Positions 2,363 to 9,429 of a stretch of 9,628 bases of DNA are shown here, one piece after another; positions within the stretch are counted from its first letter, which is position 1, and each line of letters starts with the position of its first letter. Made by a program: the position numbers and the translations under genes. Source of the DNA: Pirellulales bacterium (GTDB lineage: Bacteria > Planctomycetota > Planctomycetia > Pirellulales > JAICIG01); assembly GCA_025924495.1 (NCBI GenBank), contig JAICIG010000306.1, forward strand, positions 1 through 9,628, read 5' to 3'. Under the pieces are notes generated by a model. The model made no database searches, was not told where the DNA came from, and was given only the letters and a program-made list of their open reading frames with translations.

Positions 2363-3037
2363 TTAGCGCACGCCGTCCGATTCGGCGGGCTTGCGATCTC
2401 GATCGAGCCAGCCGCGCAGTGCGGCTGCTTGAATCTGGTCGTCGAAGCCCGCCTCGCGAAACGCCCGTTCGGCCTGTCTCCGCAGCGACTCGCGAGCGAC
2501 CGACTCCGACAGTTTGGGGCGCAGTTTCGCATAGGCTTCGAGCAATTGCTCGCTGATTCGGTCAATCCTCGGCCGCAATTCGGTCTGCAGATCTGCCGCG
2601 TCAGAAAACGGCTCGCGTTCGACGCGCTGCCACTCGTCCCAAGCGGCCTGCTGAATCAGCTTGCCTGCGTCGATCTGGGCCTGCATCAACTGCCGCGTCT
2701 CATCGGCCGGCAAGCCGAATGGCTCCCCGCGGCGCTCGAGCGCCTCCAGCAACCGTCGCTCTCGTTCTGGATCGTTAATCGGCTGCCGTGCGTTCCATTT
2801 GTAACGGGCCACTTCGTGCATGACTTCCAGACGGTTGAGCATCGCGTCGAGCAACTCTTGAATGGCGGCATTGTCCGCCGTTGCCGCGGCATTAACCGCA
2901 GTACGATCGGCGCGAACAGCCGTAGCGCGCTCTGGCATTCCCGCCTGCGGCGCGCAGGAAGTCATTGACAGCAACGCCGCGCCAGCAACCAGCGAGCGGA
3001 TCCGGCAAAGCGGCGCAAGGCAAGAGGGAGACCGCAA
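2363..3037 (-). CDS. aroQ: Exported chorismate mutase, gamma class (AroQ), lipoprotein-like
   Basis: The product is 224 residues. Residues 15-28 (SLVAGAALLSMTSC) form a signal with a plausible lipobox, so Cys28 may be lipidated. The mature part matches secreted AroQ-gamma enzymes such as M. tuberculosis Rv1885c in RLEVMHEVARYKWNARQPIND. Catalytic positions keep their spacing: Arg69, Lys80, Asp89, Arg92, and Gln129 where the tubercular enzyme has Glu (E. coli has Gln). The Thr105 equivalent is Gly125. The enzyme turns chorismate into prephenate, here outside the cytoplasm. The frame is open to ATG at 3154, but those ATGs lack good ribosome sites and overlap or precede the TATAAT box. TTG at 3037 has AAGGAG 7 bases upstream and yields a tidy signal peptide, so it was chosen. 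No other aromatic pathway gene is nearby. Confidence 0.85.
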   Translation of the reverse strand: MRSPSCLAPLCRIRSLVAGAALLSMTSCAPQAGMPERATAVRADRTAVNAAATADNAAIQELLDAMLNRLEVMHEVARYKWNARQPINDPERERRLLEALERRGEPFGLPADETRQLMQAQIDAGKLIQQAAWDEWQRVEREPFSDAADLQTELRPRIDRISEQLLEAYAKLRPKLSESVARESLRRQAERAFREAGFDDQIQAAALRGWLDRDRKPAESDGVR

Positions 3038-3068
3038 AGGCAAGCTCCTTGTTGGGCAAAGATCAAGA

Positions 3069-3074
3069 ATTATA
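3069..3074 (-). promoter_or_regulatory. Consensus -10 box for aroQ
   Basis: A perfect TATAAT in minus-strand sense, about 30 bases ahead of the proposed TTG start and its AAGGAG site (3045-3050). No good -35 was found at 16-18 bases. The box favours the short TTG start, since the ATGs at 3082 and 3088 would lie at or before it. Confidence 0.45.
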
Positions 3075-3114
3075 GCCGACATTTCCATTCGCTCGATGAT
3101 CGCCTCCGCCGTAG

Positions 3115-3177: not shown

Positions 3178-4596
3178 ATGCTTCCTCAATTTGCTTTAGC
3201 CTTCGCGGTCGAGCTTTCCTTCCTGTCGGCGTTGCTGCAAGCGCCGGGTGCGCCCAGTGCGACCAAGCCGGATGCTAATCCGCCAGCCGCACCCGAGAAG
3301 GTCGACGTCGAGCCGGTGGCTCAAGACGAACAGATCGGCCGCCGGCTGTTGCGAATCATGAAGGCCACCACCTGGTTTGACGACCCGACGGTTCGCGTCG
3401 ACCAGGGCGTAGTGATTCTGGGCGGGCACACGGATAACAAAGATCACAAGGCTTGGGCCGGCGAACTGGCTTCGAAGACGGAAGACGTCGTGGCGGTCGT
3501 CAATCACATTCAACTCGACGAAGCCCCGCTCTTCGACATGCGGCCGGCGGTCACCGAAATTGAGAGCCTGCTGAAAGGCGGCATCAGATTGTCGCCTTTG
3601 TTCGGCGTCGCGGCCATCGTGCTCTTGCTGTCGTGGTTCGCCGCCAAGCTGACGCAACGCCTGACGCTGCGCGTGCTCGAGCGGCGATTGGGCAATGCCT
3701 TGTTAGCCGAGGTCGGATCGAAGGCGGTTGCCATTCCGGTCTTCTTGCTCGGGCTGTACCTGGTGCTGGAGCTTTCCGGTTTAGCGCGCGTCGCACTGAC
3801 CGTCGCGGGAGGCACCGGCCTGGCCGGGCTTGTGCTCGGCATTGCGTTTCGCGACATCCTGGAGAATTTTCTGGCCGGCATTCTGATCAGCGTTCAACAT
3901 CCGTTTCGGGTCGGCGATTTGATCCGCGTTGAAGACAAACAAGGCTTTGTCCAGCGGGTGACCACGCGGGGAACGATCTTGATCGCGTACGACGGCACAT
4001 ACATTCAGGTTCCGAATTCGACGATTTATAAAACGACGATTCACAACTTCACTGCCAATCCGAAAATGCGCCAGGAATTCGTCGTCAACCTGGGGCTGCT
4101 CGATCCGATCGAAACCGCCCAAGACCTCGCAGCCAAAGTGCTGCGCGAGCATTCAGCAATCCTCAAAGACCCGGAACCCGTCGTATTAGTTGACGAACTG
4201 ACGGGCGGCTCGATCAATCTCAAGGCCTATTTCTGGGTCGATGCGACGGAATACAGCGATTTGAAGGTGCGTTCGTCGGCAATCCGGCTGGTAAAAGATG
4301 CTTTGCAAAAAGCGAAAATGCTATCGCCCGACGGCATTCAACAGATCGCGTTTCCCAAAGGCCTTGCCATCCGCCGCGACGAAGCAGATGGCGATCACAA
4401 ACCGGCTGAACAAGCGACGGCCGACGGCCGCTGCACAACAGCGACGTGTCCGCCCCAGGACGCTGCGGCACGGGCCGAGGGGGACTTGGGAAGCGAGGCG
4501 GCGCAACTGCGTGCTCAAGCCAAAGCCGCGCCGCTGCCCGAGCAAGGGGCCAACTTGATCGCCCATGCAAGCAGCGGCAACGGTCGACCGGCATAA
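3178..4596 (+). CDS. MscS family mechanosensitive channel with N-terminal BON domain
   Basis: The product is 472 residues. In order: a hydrophobic export signal or first helix (3-20), an Ala/Pro linker, a BON domain at about 50-113 (IGRRLLRIMKATTWFDDPTV, GVVILGGHTDN, VVAVVNHIQL), helices at about 140-157 and 183-203, then the Gly/Ala-rich MscS pore helix at 207-240 ending in ISVQHPFRVGDLIRVED. The cytoplasmic MscS beta and alpha/beta domains follow to about 395. The last 75 residues are polar, Ala-rich and probably disordered. MscS channels release solutes on hypo-osmotic shock. BON domains bind membranes or ligands in the periplasm and could couple the channel to the envelope. A GGAG-type site precedes the ATG. 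It is divergent from aroQ and convergent with the next gene. The subfamily is not resolved. Confidence 0.93.
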   Translation: MLPQFALAFAVELSFLSALLQAPGAPSATKPDANPPAAPEKVDVEPVAQDEQIGRRLLRIMKATTWFDDPTVRVDQGVVILGGHTDNKDHKAWAGELASKTEDVVAVVNHIQLDEAPLFDMRPAVTEIESLLKGGIRLSPLFGVAAIVLLLSWFAAKLTQRLTLRVLERRLGNALLAEVGSKAVAIPVFLLGLYLVLELSGLARVALTVAGGTGLAGLVLGIAFRDILENFLAGILISVQHPFRVGDLIRVEDKQGFVQRVTTRGTILIAYDGTYIQVPNSTIYKTTIHNFTANPKMRQEFVVNLGLLDPIETAQDLAAKVLREHSAILKDPEPVVLVDELTGGSINLKAYFWVDATEYSDLKVRSSAIRLVKDALQKAKMLSPDGIQQIAFPKGLAIRRDEADGDHKPAEQATADGRCTTATCPPQDAAARAEGDLGSEAAQLRAQAKAAPLPEQGANLIAHASSGNGRPA

Positions 4597-4637: not shown

Positions 4638-4877
4638 CTAGCGCGTCGGCTTGGCCTTGGGAGGCTGCGCGCCGGAGCCCTTGGCCCGGGCGGGCTCGCC
4701 GGGCATAAACCGATTGCAGCCACTCGAGCCAGTGACGCTCAGACGGAATGCCTGCAACTCTTCGTCAATGCACAGCCCCAGCGTCGTTTTGGCGATCCTG
4801 GCGTCGGGTTCAATCTGCCACCACTTGCAGTCTTTACAGAGTCCCCACGACTGTTCAACCTCTGTCTTCTTGGCCAC
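4638..4877 (-). CDS. Small four-cysteine protein, probable metal or Fe-S binder
   Basis: The product is 79 residues. The frame is open to 5039, but GTG at 4877 has a perfect AAGGAG (4886-4891) 8 bases upstream, and the protein-like part begins there. The core has Cys14 and Cys17 (GLCKDCKWWQIEPDA), Cys36 (TLGLCIDEELQ) and Cys54 (SGCNRFMPGEPAR), followed by a basic Pro/Lys tail. The C-x2-C plus two single Cys pattern with flanking Trp and Phe suits a single zinc, iron or iron-sulphur site. I recall similar short proteins labelled benzylsuccinate synthase beta-like, a name that probably overstates what is known. It has no signal peptide, so it should be cytoplasmic. It is convergent with the MscS gene, whose stop lies 41 bases away. 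Confidence 0.8.
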   Translation of the reverse strand: MAKKTEVEQSWGLCKDCKWWQIEPDARIAKTTLGLCIDEELQAFRLSVTGSSGCNRFMPGEPARAKGSGAQPPKAKPTR

Positions 4878-5429
4878 CGTTGTTTCTCCTTGCGATAAGG
4901 TTCGCAGCGCGGTATGCGAATTGATTGATTCGTCCCCCAGAATTACGACGCCAGCATAAAGCGTGCCGCCCCTAGCGCGCCGTGGTCGCGATGCTTTAAC
5001 GCGACGGTAAGCGGTCGACGCCGTCGCTGGCGCTTGCATATCCGCGACTTCCTGGTCGCTTGTCGCTCAGCGGATCACTGCGCGGCCTGCATTGCCCGAT
5101 ACCTTCCTTATTCACGTCCGCGCGCCCAATGGGCGACATTTCCGATATCCTCGGGCTGGCCCCATGCCCGACCGAGGACCACTGCGCCAGACAGATGTCG
5201 CATTTATTGGTCTTGGCGCACTTTGAAAGAGATCCAAGAATCATCGCCTAAGCTGCGACCGGCGTTGCGGTTAATCATCCTGCAACGGATCGTTTCGCGC
5301 ATCGCTCGGAGCTGGCCGGTAGGAACAGGCGAACGATTCGCCGGCAAATCGAACTATGTCGAAGGGCCCAATAGGGAGCGGTTACAAAAACTCCTGCAAA
5401 AAGTGAGGCGGGACGCCTCTCTCGCCGCG
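4878..5429. other. Spacer between the four-Cys gene and the histidine kinase
   Basis: About 550 bases without a convincing gene. The kinase frame is open back to 5034, but that part lacks domain-like sequence and is probably not translated. Perfect short inverted repeats lie at 5328-5342 (GGCGAA-CGA-TTCGCC) and 5405-5419 (GAGGCG-GGA-CGCCTC); the second is close to the kinase start. No clear promoter was identified. Confidence 0.5.
5405..5419 (+). promoter_or_regulatory. Hairpin next to the kinase start
   Basis: GAGGCG-GGA-CGCCTC is a perfect 6-base-pair stem ending 10 bases before the ATG. It holds the only Shine-Dalgarno-like GAGG nearby, so it could lower translation, or it may be chance in GC-rich DNA. 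Confidence 0.25.
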
Positions 5430-7142
5430 ATGAATATGTTCGACTTCCTTGGCAATCTCCTTGATACCACCGACTTTCCCGCGCGTTGGCATTGCGGGCA
5501 GTGGACGACAGGGCACGGACTGCTGCACATCGTTTCCGATCTCGGCGTGTGGTCGGCCTACATCACCATTCCCTGTGTGCTGATTTATTTCATGCAGCAG
5601 CGGAAAGACCTGCCTTTCCGCACCGTGTTCTGGTTATTCGTGGCGTTCATCCTGGCCTGCGGGTCGACTCATTTGATGGAGGCCGTCATCTTCTGGTGGC
5701 CGGCCTACCGGCTGGCAGGCGTGATCAAGTTGTTTACGGCCATCGTTTCATGGACCACGGTGTTCGCCCTGGCGCCGATCATTCCCCAGGCCCTGGCGCT
5801 GCGCAGCCCGGAAGCATTGCAACGCGAGGTCGATGAACGCAGACGGGTCGAGGCGGAACTCCGAGCCGCCCAACGAGATTTGGAGGCGCGAGTTTCAGCT
5901 CGCACCGAAGAGTTGGCCTCGGCCAACCAGGCGCTGCGCATGGAGGTCATCCAACGACAACACGCTCAGGAACAGGCCGAATTCGCCAACCGGATGAAGG
6001 ACGAGTTCCTGGCCACCTTATCGCATGAACTAAGGACGCCGCTAACAGCCATTGTCGGCTGGGCGGCGTTGCTCAAAACGGATCAGCTTGGCCCCGAAGA
6101 AACGGGGCGAGCCATCGAGACGATCGCTCGCAATGCCCGGTTGCAGACGCGGTTGATTGAAGATCTCCTCGATGTCTCGAGGATCGTGTCCGGCAAACTG
6201 CGGATCGAGTCGCAGGCCGTCGATGTGAAGAAGGTCATCGAGGCAGCCATCGCTTCGACCGCTCCGCTGGCCGACTCCAAGTCAATCAAGATCGAGCGGA
6301 GCTATGCGGACGACGCCGCATTCGTGCTAGGCGACGCCGCGCGGCTGCAGCAGGTCGCCTGGAACCTGCTCTCGAACGCCGTGAAGTTCACGCCCGTGGG
6401 CGGCGCCATCAGCGTGCAAACGTCGCGAGCGGGAAACAATGCCGTAATTCGCATTGCCGATAACGGCGAGGGGATCGCGCCGGACCTTTTGCCCTTTGTG
6501 TTCGATCGCTTCCGCCAGGCAGATTCGTCAACGACGCGCCGCCACGGCGGCCTCGGACTTGGCCTGGCGATCGTGCGCCATCTCGTGGAGCTGCATGGCG
6601 GGCAGGTGTCGATCGAAAGTGCCGGCACAGGTCACGGCGCGACCGTAACGGTAATCTTGCCGAACCTCGCCGCCGCAGCATCGCCAGCGGCGAGGCTGCT
6701 GGAAGAAATGTTCGCCGAGGTTCCCGACAATGCGGCCGGCGATTTGACCGGGCGTTCCGCCCTGGTCGTCGACGACGACCCCGATACGCTGGGCGTGCTG
6801 GAGCGCATTCTCAAAGGCCGGGGCGCCAAAGTCGTGACGGCCTCATCCGCCAACCAGGCAATCGAGACGCTCGGCGCGCAACAGCCCGACGTTCTGGTCA
6901 GTGACATCGGCATGCCAGACGGAGACGGTTATCACCTCATCCGCCAAGTCCGCGCACTTGAAAACGTCAATCGGCACATTCCCGCCGTGGCCCTGACGGC
7001 CTTCGCGCGCGCCCAGGACCAGGCTTGCGTGATTCAAGCCGGCTTTCAAGCTTACTTGCGCAAACCTATCGACCCTGCCGAACTGACCTCCGCGATCGCA
7101 ACGCTACTCAATGCAGAAGCTGGTCCAACGCCTGGGCGTTAG
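5430..7142 (+). CDS. Hybrid histidine kinase with ETR1-like ethylene-binding membrane domain
   Basis: The product is 570 residues. Three membrane helices (about 34-54, 64-86, 96-120) resemble the plant ETR1 ethylene-binding domain. Asp37, Tyr44, Ile47, Pro48, Cys77 and His81 match ETR1 Asp25, Tyr32, Ile35, Pro36, Cys65 and His69 with identical spacing; Cys and His are the copper(I) ligands in ETR1. A coiled coil (about 128-190) leads to a HisKA domain with His199 (SHELRTPL), then an ATPase domain with N-box Asn312/Asn316, DNGEGIAP from 344 and GGLGLGLA from 373. A receiver domain follows with acidic Asp448-450, phospho-acceptor Asp492 and Lys in LRKPID. No output domain is present, so a phosphotransfer partner must lie elsewhere. 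No strong ribosome site precedes the ATGs at 5430 and 5436; 5430 was chosen because similar proteins begin near there. Ethylene or another small hydrophobic ligand is inferred, not shown. Confidence 0.93.
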   Translation: MNMFDFLGNLLDTTDFPARWHCGQWTTGHGLLHIVSDLGVWSAYITIPCVLIYFMQQRKDLPFRTVFWLFVAFILACGSTHLMEAVIFWWPAYRLAGVIKLFTAIVSWTTVFALAPIIPQALALRSPEALQREVDERRRVEAELRAAQRDLEARVSARTEELASANQALRMEVIQRQHAQEQAEFANRMKDEFLATLSHELRTPLTAIVGWAALLKTDQLGPEETGRAIETIARNARLQTRLIEDLLDVSRIVSGKLRIESQAVDVKKVIEAAIASTAPLADSKSIKIERSYADDAAFVLGDAARLQQVAWNLLSNAVKFTPVGGAISVQTSRAGNNAVIRIADNGEGIAPDLLPFVFDRFRQADSSTTRRHGGLGLGLAIVRHLVELHGGQVSIESAGTGHGATVTVILPNLAAAASPAARLLEEMFAEVPDNAAGDLTGRSALVVDDDPDTLGVLERILKGRGAKVVTASSANQAIETLGAQQPDVLVSDIGMPDGDGYHLIRQVRALENVNRHIPAVALTAFARAQDQACVIQAGFQAYLRKPIDPAELTSAIATLLNAEAGPTPGR

Positions 7143-8104: not shown

Positions 8105-8219
8105 TCTTACAGAAAACATCCGCCCCTATCGCTGGGTCGCCGGTCGGCGGAAACGACGCCGTGATGCGACGGCTCTTAGCCATCTTGTCACTGGTCGCAA
8201 TTCCTGCATTGAAAACTGC
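8046..8219 (-). pseudogene. Frameshifted C-terminal remnant of the FSLRT-type gene
   Basis: In the frame shifted by one base from the neighbouring CDS, the sequence reads AVFNAGIATSDKMAK, then CKISKKGKDHLKEALPNCDAEF. The end (GxxxLKEALPNCD) is the usual close of planctomycete proteins with a FSLRT start and leucine-rich tail, and the sister gene here ends similarly (QLAAALPDCKVMR). The normal stop is absent and the sequence runs into the GYF fragment. This supports one gene, 8046-8493, broken by a frameshift near 8225-8240 and by loss of its end. Confidence 0.55.
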
Positions 8220-8493
8220 ACCTCTGGACCGCCTGAAAATAGTCGTCGTCCATGTTCTGCCATAGCCAAGCCGGCCAATCCGGCCGCGACGGCGAACTTA
8301 AAGCACCCTTTCCTTTGTATACTGCGAATTCCCAATTATAAAATGCCGATCCGCCCAACGCTTCAATTGCCTTCACCGCTTTCCGTTGCTCGCGGGCTCG
8401 ATGGACGACGACGCGGAGCCAGACGGCTAAGGCTGTCATAATGACGAACGCAGTTCGTAGGCTGAAGGTGAGATAGCGGCGACGGGATGTCAT
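8188..8493 (-). CDS. FSLRT-type small membrane protein, truncated by frameshift
   Basis: The product is 101 residues, starting MTSRRRYLTFSLRTAFVIMT, with one membrane helix at about residues 12-30 followed by HRAREQRKAVKAIEALGGSA and then a soluble part reaching MDDDYFQAV. Up to DDYFQAV it looks like a normal member of the planctomycete FSLRT family. The last residues, QRCSFQCRNCDQ, are Cys-rich and unlike the family, and the true continuation lies in another frame (8219 down to 8046). It is a close paralogue of the gene at 8526-8978. No strong ribosome site is visible. It may be a pseudogene; the start and the membrane helix are clear. The function of this family is unknown. Confidence 0.6.
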   Translation of the reverse strand: MTSRRRYLTFSLRTAFVIMTALAVWLRVVVHRAREQRKAVKAIEALGGSAFYNWEFAVYKGKGALSSPSRPDWPAWLWQNMDDDYFQAVQRCSFQCRNCDQ

Positions 8494-8525: not shown

Positions 8526-8978
8526 TTACCGCATCACCTTGCAGTCGGGCAACGCGGCTGCCAATTGCCGCTGAGTATCTACATCGATAGTCCTGGAAAG
8601 CCGCACCGCTCGGAGCGGCTGTAGTCGCTGGAGTTGCGGAATCAATTTCAGTATTTCGCGGTCGCTATAACGGCATTGACGCAGATTGACGGTATCGATG
8701 TTGTACAGAAAGTCCTCGCCAAAGCTCAGGCGAAGCCATGCCGTTCGCTGCCATTTCGCCTGCATATCTCGTACTTCGGAAAGCGTAAAACCCTTTTTAC
8801 GAGGACCGTACGCATAATTTATCCTGCCACCTATCGCTAAGACGGCCTGGACAGCATCTCGTTTGTCGCGGGCTCGTTCTACCCACCAACCTAACCAGAC
8901 GGCGAACAGCGTGAGCACGACGAACGCAGTTCGTAACGAAAACTGAAGCCAGCGGCGACGGTTTGCCATTCGGCCCAT
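8526..8978 (-). CDS. FSLRT-type small membrane protein
   Basis: The product is 150 residues: a basic start (MGRMANRRRW), LQFSLRTAFVVLTLFAVWLG as the membrane helix (about 13-31), ERARDKRDAVQAVLAIGG, and then a soluble domain with leucine-rich character (LSFGEDFLYNIDTVNLRQC, ILKLIPQLQRLQPLRAVRLS) closing with AALPDCKVMR. This is the common planctomycete layout of an anchored protein with a short leucine-rich-repeat-like tail; its job is unknown. ATG at 8978 has AGGA 8 bases upstream and starts 4 bases after the stop of the preceding gene, so the pair is co-transcribed. A second ATG at 8969 would also fit. The first 50 residues closely match the gene at 8188-8493, which shows tandem duplication. 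Confidence 0.8.
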   Translation of the reverse strand: MGRMANRRRWLQFSLRTAFVVLTLFAVWLGWWVERARDKRDAVQAVLAIGGRINYAYGPRKKGFTLSEVRDMQAKWQRTAWLRLSFGEDFLYNIDTVNLRQCRYSDREILKLIPQLQRLQPLRAVRLSRTIDVDTQRQLAAALPDCKVMR

Positions 8979-8982
8979 TGGT

Positions 8983-9429
8983 TCAGTCCTGCGGACCTTG
9001 GGGCGGGCGGATCAAGAGCCAGTGCGTGAAGACGCAAAGCAGGCCGACGACAGGGGCAAAGCTCCACAGCAAGAGAAGTACCTGAAACTCCGACGACAAT
9101 GATTTCGCAATCGCTTGCAAGCGAGCAAGCGGAGTAGCAGCGGGATTAGGATTTGCGTACAGGGTAAAGACGTTCACCACACCGGCGTCGGACGGCAAAT
9201 ACAAATTAATTCCAAAGATGCACCCCGCGGCAATCCCTACCCACCATGCCCTCGCTTTGCCACTTGAGTTGACGCTCAAAATCACCGCCGAAGCGGGAAC
9301 GCAAATTAGGAACAGGGTCTCGACGAGCCCTATTTGCCACGACGGCTCCGCCATCCACAAGGCCGCACCGATCCCAAGGGCGGCGACGGTGGCGAGCAGC
9401 GTGCGGAGCGAATAGTTGAAGCGGCCCAT
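8983..9429 (-). CDS. Small four-helix membrane protein with SLRT start
   Basis: The product is 148 residues, starting MGRFNYSLRTLLATVAALGI. Hydrophobic segments lie at about residues 9-26, 33-54, 62-77 and 115-140, so three to four membrane helices are expected. The N-terminal motif relates it to the planctomycete SLRT families, though the body differs from the two downstream genes. The frame is open to 9531 with ATGs at 9531, 9462 and 9429; the last was chosen because the SLRT motif normally lies 6-8 residues from the start. No strong ribosome site is visible. The TGA at 8983-8985 nearly touches the next ATG, which suggests an operon. The function is unknown. Confidence 0.72.
   Translation of the reverse strand: MGRFNYSLRTLLATVAALGIGAALWMAEPSWQIGLVETLFLICVPASAVILSVNSSGKARAWWVGIAAGCIFGINLYLPSDAGVVNVFTLYANPNPAATPLARLQAIAKSLSSEFQVLLLLWSFAPVVGLLCVFTHWLLIRPPQGPQD

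Follow-up and report, generated by a model that had tools for sequence, protein, structure and literature searches.

The window, by which we mean the whole 9,628-nucleotide stretch of DNA analysed here, encodes on its plus strand an ETR1-like hybrid sensor histidine kinase of 570 residues (5430..7142), in the frame and with the coordinates and stop given by the first-pass annotation. Four Pfam-A domains score over their cut-offs, all on the same strand: the ethylene-binding domain ETR1_N (PF25487; residues 30-124, 5517..5801), which covers profile positions 3-97 of 97 at 125.3 bits (cut-off 27, E = 1.2e-36); HisKA (residues 189-254, 5994..6191; 68.5 bits); HATPase_c (residues 301-411, 6330..6662; 102.7 bits); and a receiver domain, Response_reg (residues 445-556, 6762..7097; 84 bits). 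With HisKA, HATPase_c and a receiver in one chain, the protein is a hybrid histidine kinase. NCBIfam gave 156 matches, the best 25 of which are other two-component protein models, all under cut-off. His199, within HisKA, is invariant across 30 aligned proteins and is the expected phospho-acceptor.

The gene may start at 5430 or 5436; a methionine aligns with window Met3 in 78 of 121 close proteins (a set in which the window protein is counted twice); residues are numbered from 5430 throughout. Starts upstream of 5430, such as that of the 639-residue database protein P0002, were set aside; most close relatives begin near 5430/5436. The stretch upstream of 5430 is also present in the close relative P0003, leaving room for a longer start.

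The recognisable minus-strand neighbours are DoxX, a pirin/quercetinase-type cupin and a MarR regulator, which lie in a row at 2-1757 with DoxX running off the window end, and a gamma-class AroQ chorismate mutase at 2363-3088 (TIGR01806, 98.7 bits, cut-off 74.15). A mechanosensitive channel (MscS) with an N-terminal BON domain occupies 3178-4596 on the plus strand. Four small minus-strand ORFs (4638-4913, 8188-8493, 8526-8978 and 8983-9429) matched no Pfam or NCBIfam family, the frame just upstream of the kinase had no Pfam match, and neither did the five ORFs of at least 80 residues that overlap the kinase 3' end or start within 1 kb downstream (E <= 0.1). Among the ten ORFs (kinase included) and six further ORFs scanned, no neighbour was recognisably linked to ethylene. 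Across 36 planctomycete-titled loci carrying a relative, no neighbour recurred: at blastp E <= 1e-8, with frames of at least 100 residues, matches were confined to the kinase and two window frames overlapping it. This is weak evidence because the loci are uneven in length, some with less than 1 kb on one side.

Putative ethylene/copper site and predicted fold

The first-pass annotation had assigned the N-terminal helices to an ETR1-like domain, and the ETR1_N match bears this out; an unrelated membrane family for these helices was ruled out, ETR1_N being the sole Pfam match of the region. For the residue comparison we aligned ETR1 residues 1-120 and took Y32, I35, P36 and I62 to be four of the seven ETR1 residues needed for ethylene binding. 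PMC11819568 gives the number as seven and names the other three, D25, C65 and H69, of which Cys65 and His69 are the proposed copper ligands. The AzoEtr1 sequence was taken from the Azospirillum brasilense Sp7 plasmid record (L154); its D35, C75, H79 and K98 and its length of 525 residues agree with PMC11819568, which identifies the aligned protein as the characterised receptor.

All seven ETR1 site residues and the lysine match both receptors in the alignment. These are Asp37 (5538..5540; ETR1 D25, AzoEtr1 D35); Tyr44, Ile47 and Pro48 (5559..5573; ETR1 Y32, I35, P36; AzoEtr1 Y42, I45, P46); Ile74, Cys77 and His81 (5649..5672; ETR1 I62, C65, H69; AzoEtr1 I72, C75, H79); and Lys100 (5727..5729; ETR1 K91, AzoEtr1 K98), all on the plus strand. 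The six positions listed in the first-pass annotation were exact, as were its Asp-to-Cys spacing of 40 and Cys-to-His spacing of 4, the same as between D25, C65 and H69 of ETR1; Ile74 and Lys100 had gone unmentioned. The putative copper/ethylene site is complete, as had been proposed, and it is read, like the four domains with kinase and receiver over their cut-offs, directly from the sequence.

This site is far beyond chance. Of 6425 stop-to-stop frames of at least 80 residues from 153 fetched loci, 138 contain the motif D-x6-Y-x2-I-P-x(24-32)-C-x3-H, all of them among the 156 profile matches and none among the 6269 others. Removing three profile matches that span fewer than 91 residues left 153, and merging those with identical last 100 residues gave 141 distinct bacterial domains. 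All seven site residues are present in 123 of the 141 (18 are without at least one), although the Asp37 and Tyr44 counts lean upward because 76 of these domains come from loci gathered with two patterns, one of which contains both residues. The 65 profile-gathered domains have all seven in 53 cases and the Cys/His pair in 64; the corresponding figures for the 76 from pattern-gathered loci are 70 and 75. Overall, Cys and His are both present in 139/141 and the seven residues plus Lys in 81/141, while among the 121 close proteins (window again counted twice) none of the eight positions varies.

Group labels for the aligned domains follow record title and phylum searched. Where ETR1 has K91, 36 of 46 Bacteroidota domains have Arg, and 62 of 66 planctomycete and 20 of 23 cyanobacterial domains have Lys. 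Two loci from the phylum of Zavarzinella (L118 and L116) have Phe for the site Pro and retain Cys and His; in L118 some 260 residues of the stop-to-stop frame precede the domain.

The AlphaFold2 model, a monomer built with 30 aligned proteins, places three helices at residues 27-57, 64-87 and 91-114. Its pLDDT averages 78.8 overall and is about 50-70 across the first 130 residues. Hydropathy in 19-residue windows peaks at starts 34, 61-70 and 97, and together with this moderate-confidence model points to three N-terminal transmembrane helices. A long continuous helix (residues 127-216, 5808..6077, plus strand) is predicted to lead into HisKA as a coiled-coil-like linker. Pfam-A found neither GAF nor PAS at E <= 0.01, only the four domains; this agrees with the direct coiled-coil coupling to HisKA, ATPase and receiver described in the first-pass annotation, which the model likewise predicts. 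A profile built from eight close relatives retrieved no solved structure of the domain at E <= 1, though a review says that the structure of the ETR1 domain has been elucidated (PMC10452086).

Relatives and distribution of the domain

The 15 aligned domains most similar to the window domain all come from planctomycete genomes (68.2-74.5% identity), in keeping with the planctomycete affinity suggested at first reading. A FastTree tree rooted on the ETR1 sequence also places the window among sequences from planctomycetes; support is modest, at 0.79 for the pair that includes its nearest neighbour and 0.47-0.75 for the clades that follow. Three uncharacterised ETR1_N hybrid kinases, P0003 (94% identical to the window protein over the alignment, with frame and domains alike), P0007 (57% overall) and P0027 (45%; planctomycete according to its source), have the same four domains and site, and differ from the window protein only in sequence divergence.

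The ethylene-binding-domain family has many members, and they come from several bacterial phyla. Residues 1-135 as query retrieved 597 database proteins at E <= 0.001 among 948 candidates. The exact ETR1_N, HisKA, HATPase_c and Response_reg make-up was found in 24 of the 120 matches listed of these 597 (precomputed Pfam lists, read by eye; the window's own P0002 is included), which rules out a rare or unique arrangement; most of the other proteins among the 120 have PAS-type domains as well, and about ten have a GAF. Reference genomes yielded 142 stretches encoding a relative. In the best 80 of the 142, planctomycete titles (36) rank first, followed by Bacteroidota (Mucilaginibacter, Pedobacter, Dyadobacter and others), with single records of Brasilonema, Vampirovibrionales, Acidobacteria, Hydrogenedentota, Polyangia and Cerasicoccus.

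Whole-genome profile searches found the domain in 28 of 294 sampled genomes from the phylum of Zavarzinella, 45 of 146 from that of Brasilonema (44 over cut-off) and 9 of 148 from that of Mucilaginibacter, each sample including one carrier chosen as its centre, and in 0 of 14 control genomes. Two genomes in the phylum of Brasilonema, G432 and G402, have nine and seven matches, some weak or partial, which suggests paralogue expansion and decay. Of 72,556 plasmid records, 18 matched at E <= 1e-5, seven of them Azospirillum, and a scan of viral contigs found no relative of the query. On Novosphingobium sp. ES2-1 plasmid p2, typed as conjugative, an ethylene-binding-domain kinase gene overlaps a response regulator gene (L155, 3001-4468), and a Cas9 gene lies near the pair.

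The first-pass annotation had made a real observation, and its interpretation is supported in part. Its implication that such kinases are rare, being mostly plant or cyanobacterial, does not fit a family of this size in several bacterial phyla, in which the proteobacterial AzoEtr1 is reported to bind ethylene (PMC11819568); nor is the GAF-less make-up unusual, given the 24 of 120 matches listed that share it.

Probable ethylene sensing and its alternatives

We consider it probable that the window protein is a hybrid histidine kinase that binds ethylene in a Cu(I)-dependent way and senses this gas or an olefin of similarly small size. It would be membrane-bound and probably homodimeric; Cys77 and His81, in the second helix of a three-helix domain of the ETR1 type, would hold the Cu(I), and Asp37 and Lys100 would help to position and transmit. 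Ethylene binding would alter how these helices and the long helix 127-216 pack and thereby change kinase activity at His199; phosphate would then move to the fused receiver and from there to a separate partner, an HPt or a response regulator, whose gene would lie elsewhere. We expect such an unlinked partner because the window receiver is without an output domain. The copper, the ethylene, the dimer and the direction of signalling we infer from ETR1, SynEtr1 and AzoEtr1. Affinity or ligand could differ, because the domain is only 42% identical to that of AzoEtr1 and 35% to that of ETR1.

The same site is a copper site, and the domain might hold Cu(I) and report copper level or redox state, ethylene binding being incidental. 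Several residues outside the seven would suit such a sensor: an additional N-terminal Cys is present in 138 of the 141 bacterial domains, and the close relatives retain His33 (119/121) and His29 (112/121). A review also mentions a proposal that the perception of ethylene evolved out of an ancient mechanism of copper transport, but calls this unsupported by later findings (PMC10452086). We nevertheless judge a copper sensor unlikely: every ethylene-binding residue is kept, beyond the copper ligands alone, AzoEtr1 and SynEtr1 are reported to bind ethylene (PMC11819568, PMC6682694), and His29 is found in only 25 of 66 domains of the wider planctomycete set.

These extra residues could also have a part within an ethylene receptor. 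Cys22 (in the His21-Cys22-Gly23 codons, 5490..5498, plus strand), His33 and His29 are invariant or nearly so among the window protein's close relatives and might add ligands to the Cys77/His81 copper. On this reading the metal site of a GAF-less, directly coupled planctomycete receptor would be enlarged, which would change its affinity or provide a relay for copper loading, and its carriers would be bacteria with no known association with plants; we regard this as quite improbable. The N-terminal Cys that is kept so widely, and a Trp in 140/141 bacterial domains, are found in AzoEtr1 too. The His four before Asp, which is His33 in the window protein, occurs in 86/141 domains overall (59/66 planctomycete, 21/23 cyanobacterial), and its position is Tyr in 38 of 46 Bacteroidota domains. 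For the single cyanobacterial Cys, a role like that of the plant dimer disulfide has been proposed, according to PMC6682694. A role for the N-terminal Cys as an added metal ligand is an unproven alternative.

Copper-olefin chemistry is not strictly selective, and the pocket of a soil or water planctomycete might sense another small molecule, such as another alkene, CO or isoprene; most planctomycete carriers in the best 80 of the 142 loci are metagenome bins whose titles mention no plant contact. The site residues are, however, the very ones found in AzoEtr1, a proven binder of ethylene, and nothing in the analysis pointed to a different ligand; we hold this to be very doubtful. A degenerate or unexpressed domain that binds no ligand would be in line with the 18 of 141 relatives that have lost at least one site residue, but it is scarcely credible for a protein that has lost none and has an intact frame, kinase and receiver, and whose 94% identical relative P0003 retains frame and domains.

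The window protein and Arabidopsis ETR1 both have an ethylene-binding domain with the full site, a histidine kinase and a C-terminal receiver. ETR1 is ER-located, signals through CTR1 and has a GAF domain, whereas no GAF match lies between binding domain and kinase in the window protein. Among bacterial proteins, SynEtr1 (Synechocystis) and GeiEtr1 and GeiEtr2 (Geitlerinema) also join an ethylene-binding domain to a histidine kinase; SynEtr1 has a cyanobacteriochrome, GeiEtr1 has a GAF but lacks a receiver, and GeiEtr2 has PAS, GAF and receiver (PMC6682694). Of these extra domains, the receiver of GeiEtr2 is the only one also present in the window protein.

A characterised counterpart in its site is AzoEtr1, whose residues 1-130 are reported to bind 14C-ethylene saturably (PMC11819568). 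The two proteins have in common the seven site residues and the Lys, as well as the N-terminal Cys (AzoEtr1 C20) and the His four before Asp (H31). They differ in that AzoEtr1 is described as a binding domain-PAS-kinase protein whose response regulator is encoded by its own gene immediately downstream (PMC11819568), whereas the window kinase has no PAS match and its receiver is fused, and no response regulator was recognised among the five ORFs that overlap its 3' end or start in the next 1 kb.

Before Azospirillum, direct evidence of receptor-bound ethylene acting on a microbe came, according to PMC11819568 (2025), only from Synechocystis and the fungus Rhizophagus irregularis. Our literature search, which was not exhaustive, found no paper on planctomycete ethylene receptors among the titles and abstract openings covered, which is no proof of absence; the family, and putative ethylene receptors in further bacterial phyla, are already in print as far as these sources go. 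Because such sensors are known from other bacteria, the window protein, though clear-cut, is an ordinary addition to a known and widespread bacterial receptor family. A planctomycete receptor would carry ethylene signalling into a phylum without a tie to plants or photosynthesis, and next to ETR1, the cyanobacterial receptors and AzoEtr1, this compact, GAF-less protein with a putatively complete site would offer a simple test protein for coupling between domain and kinase.
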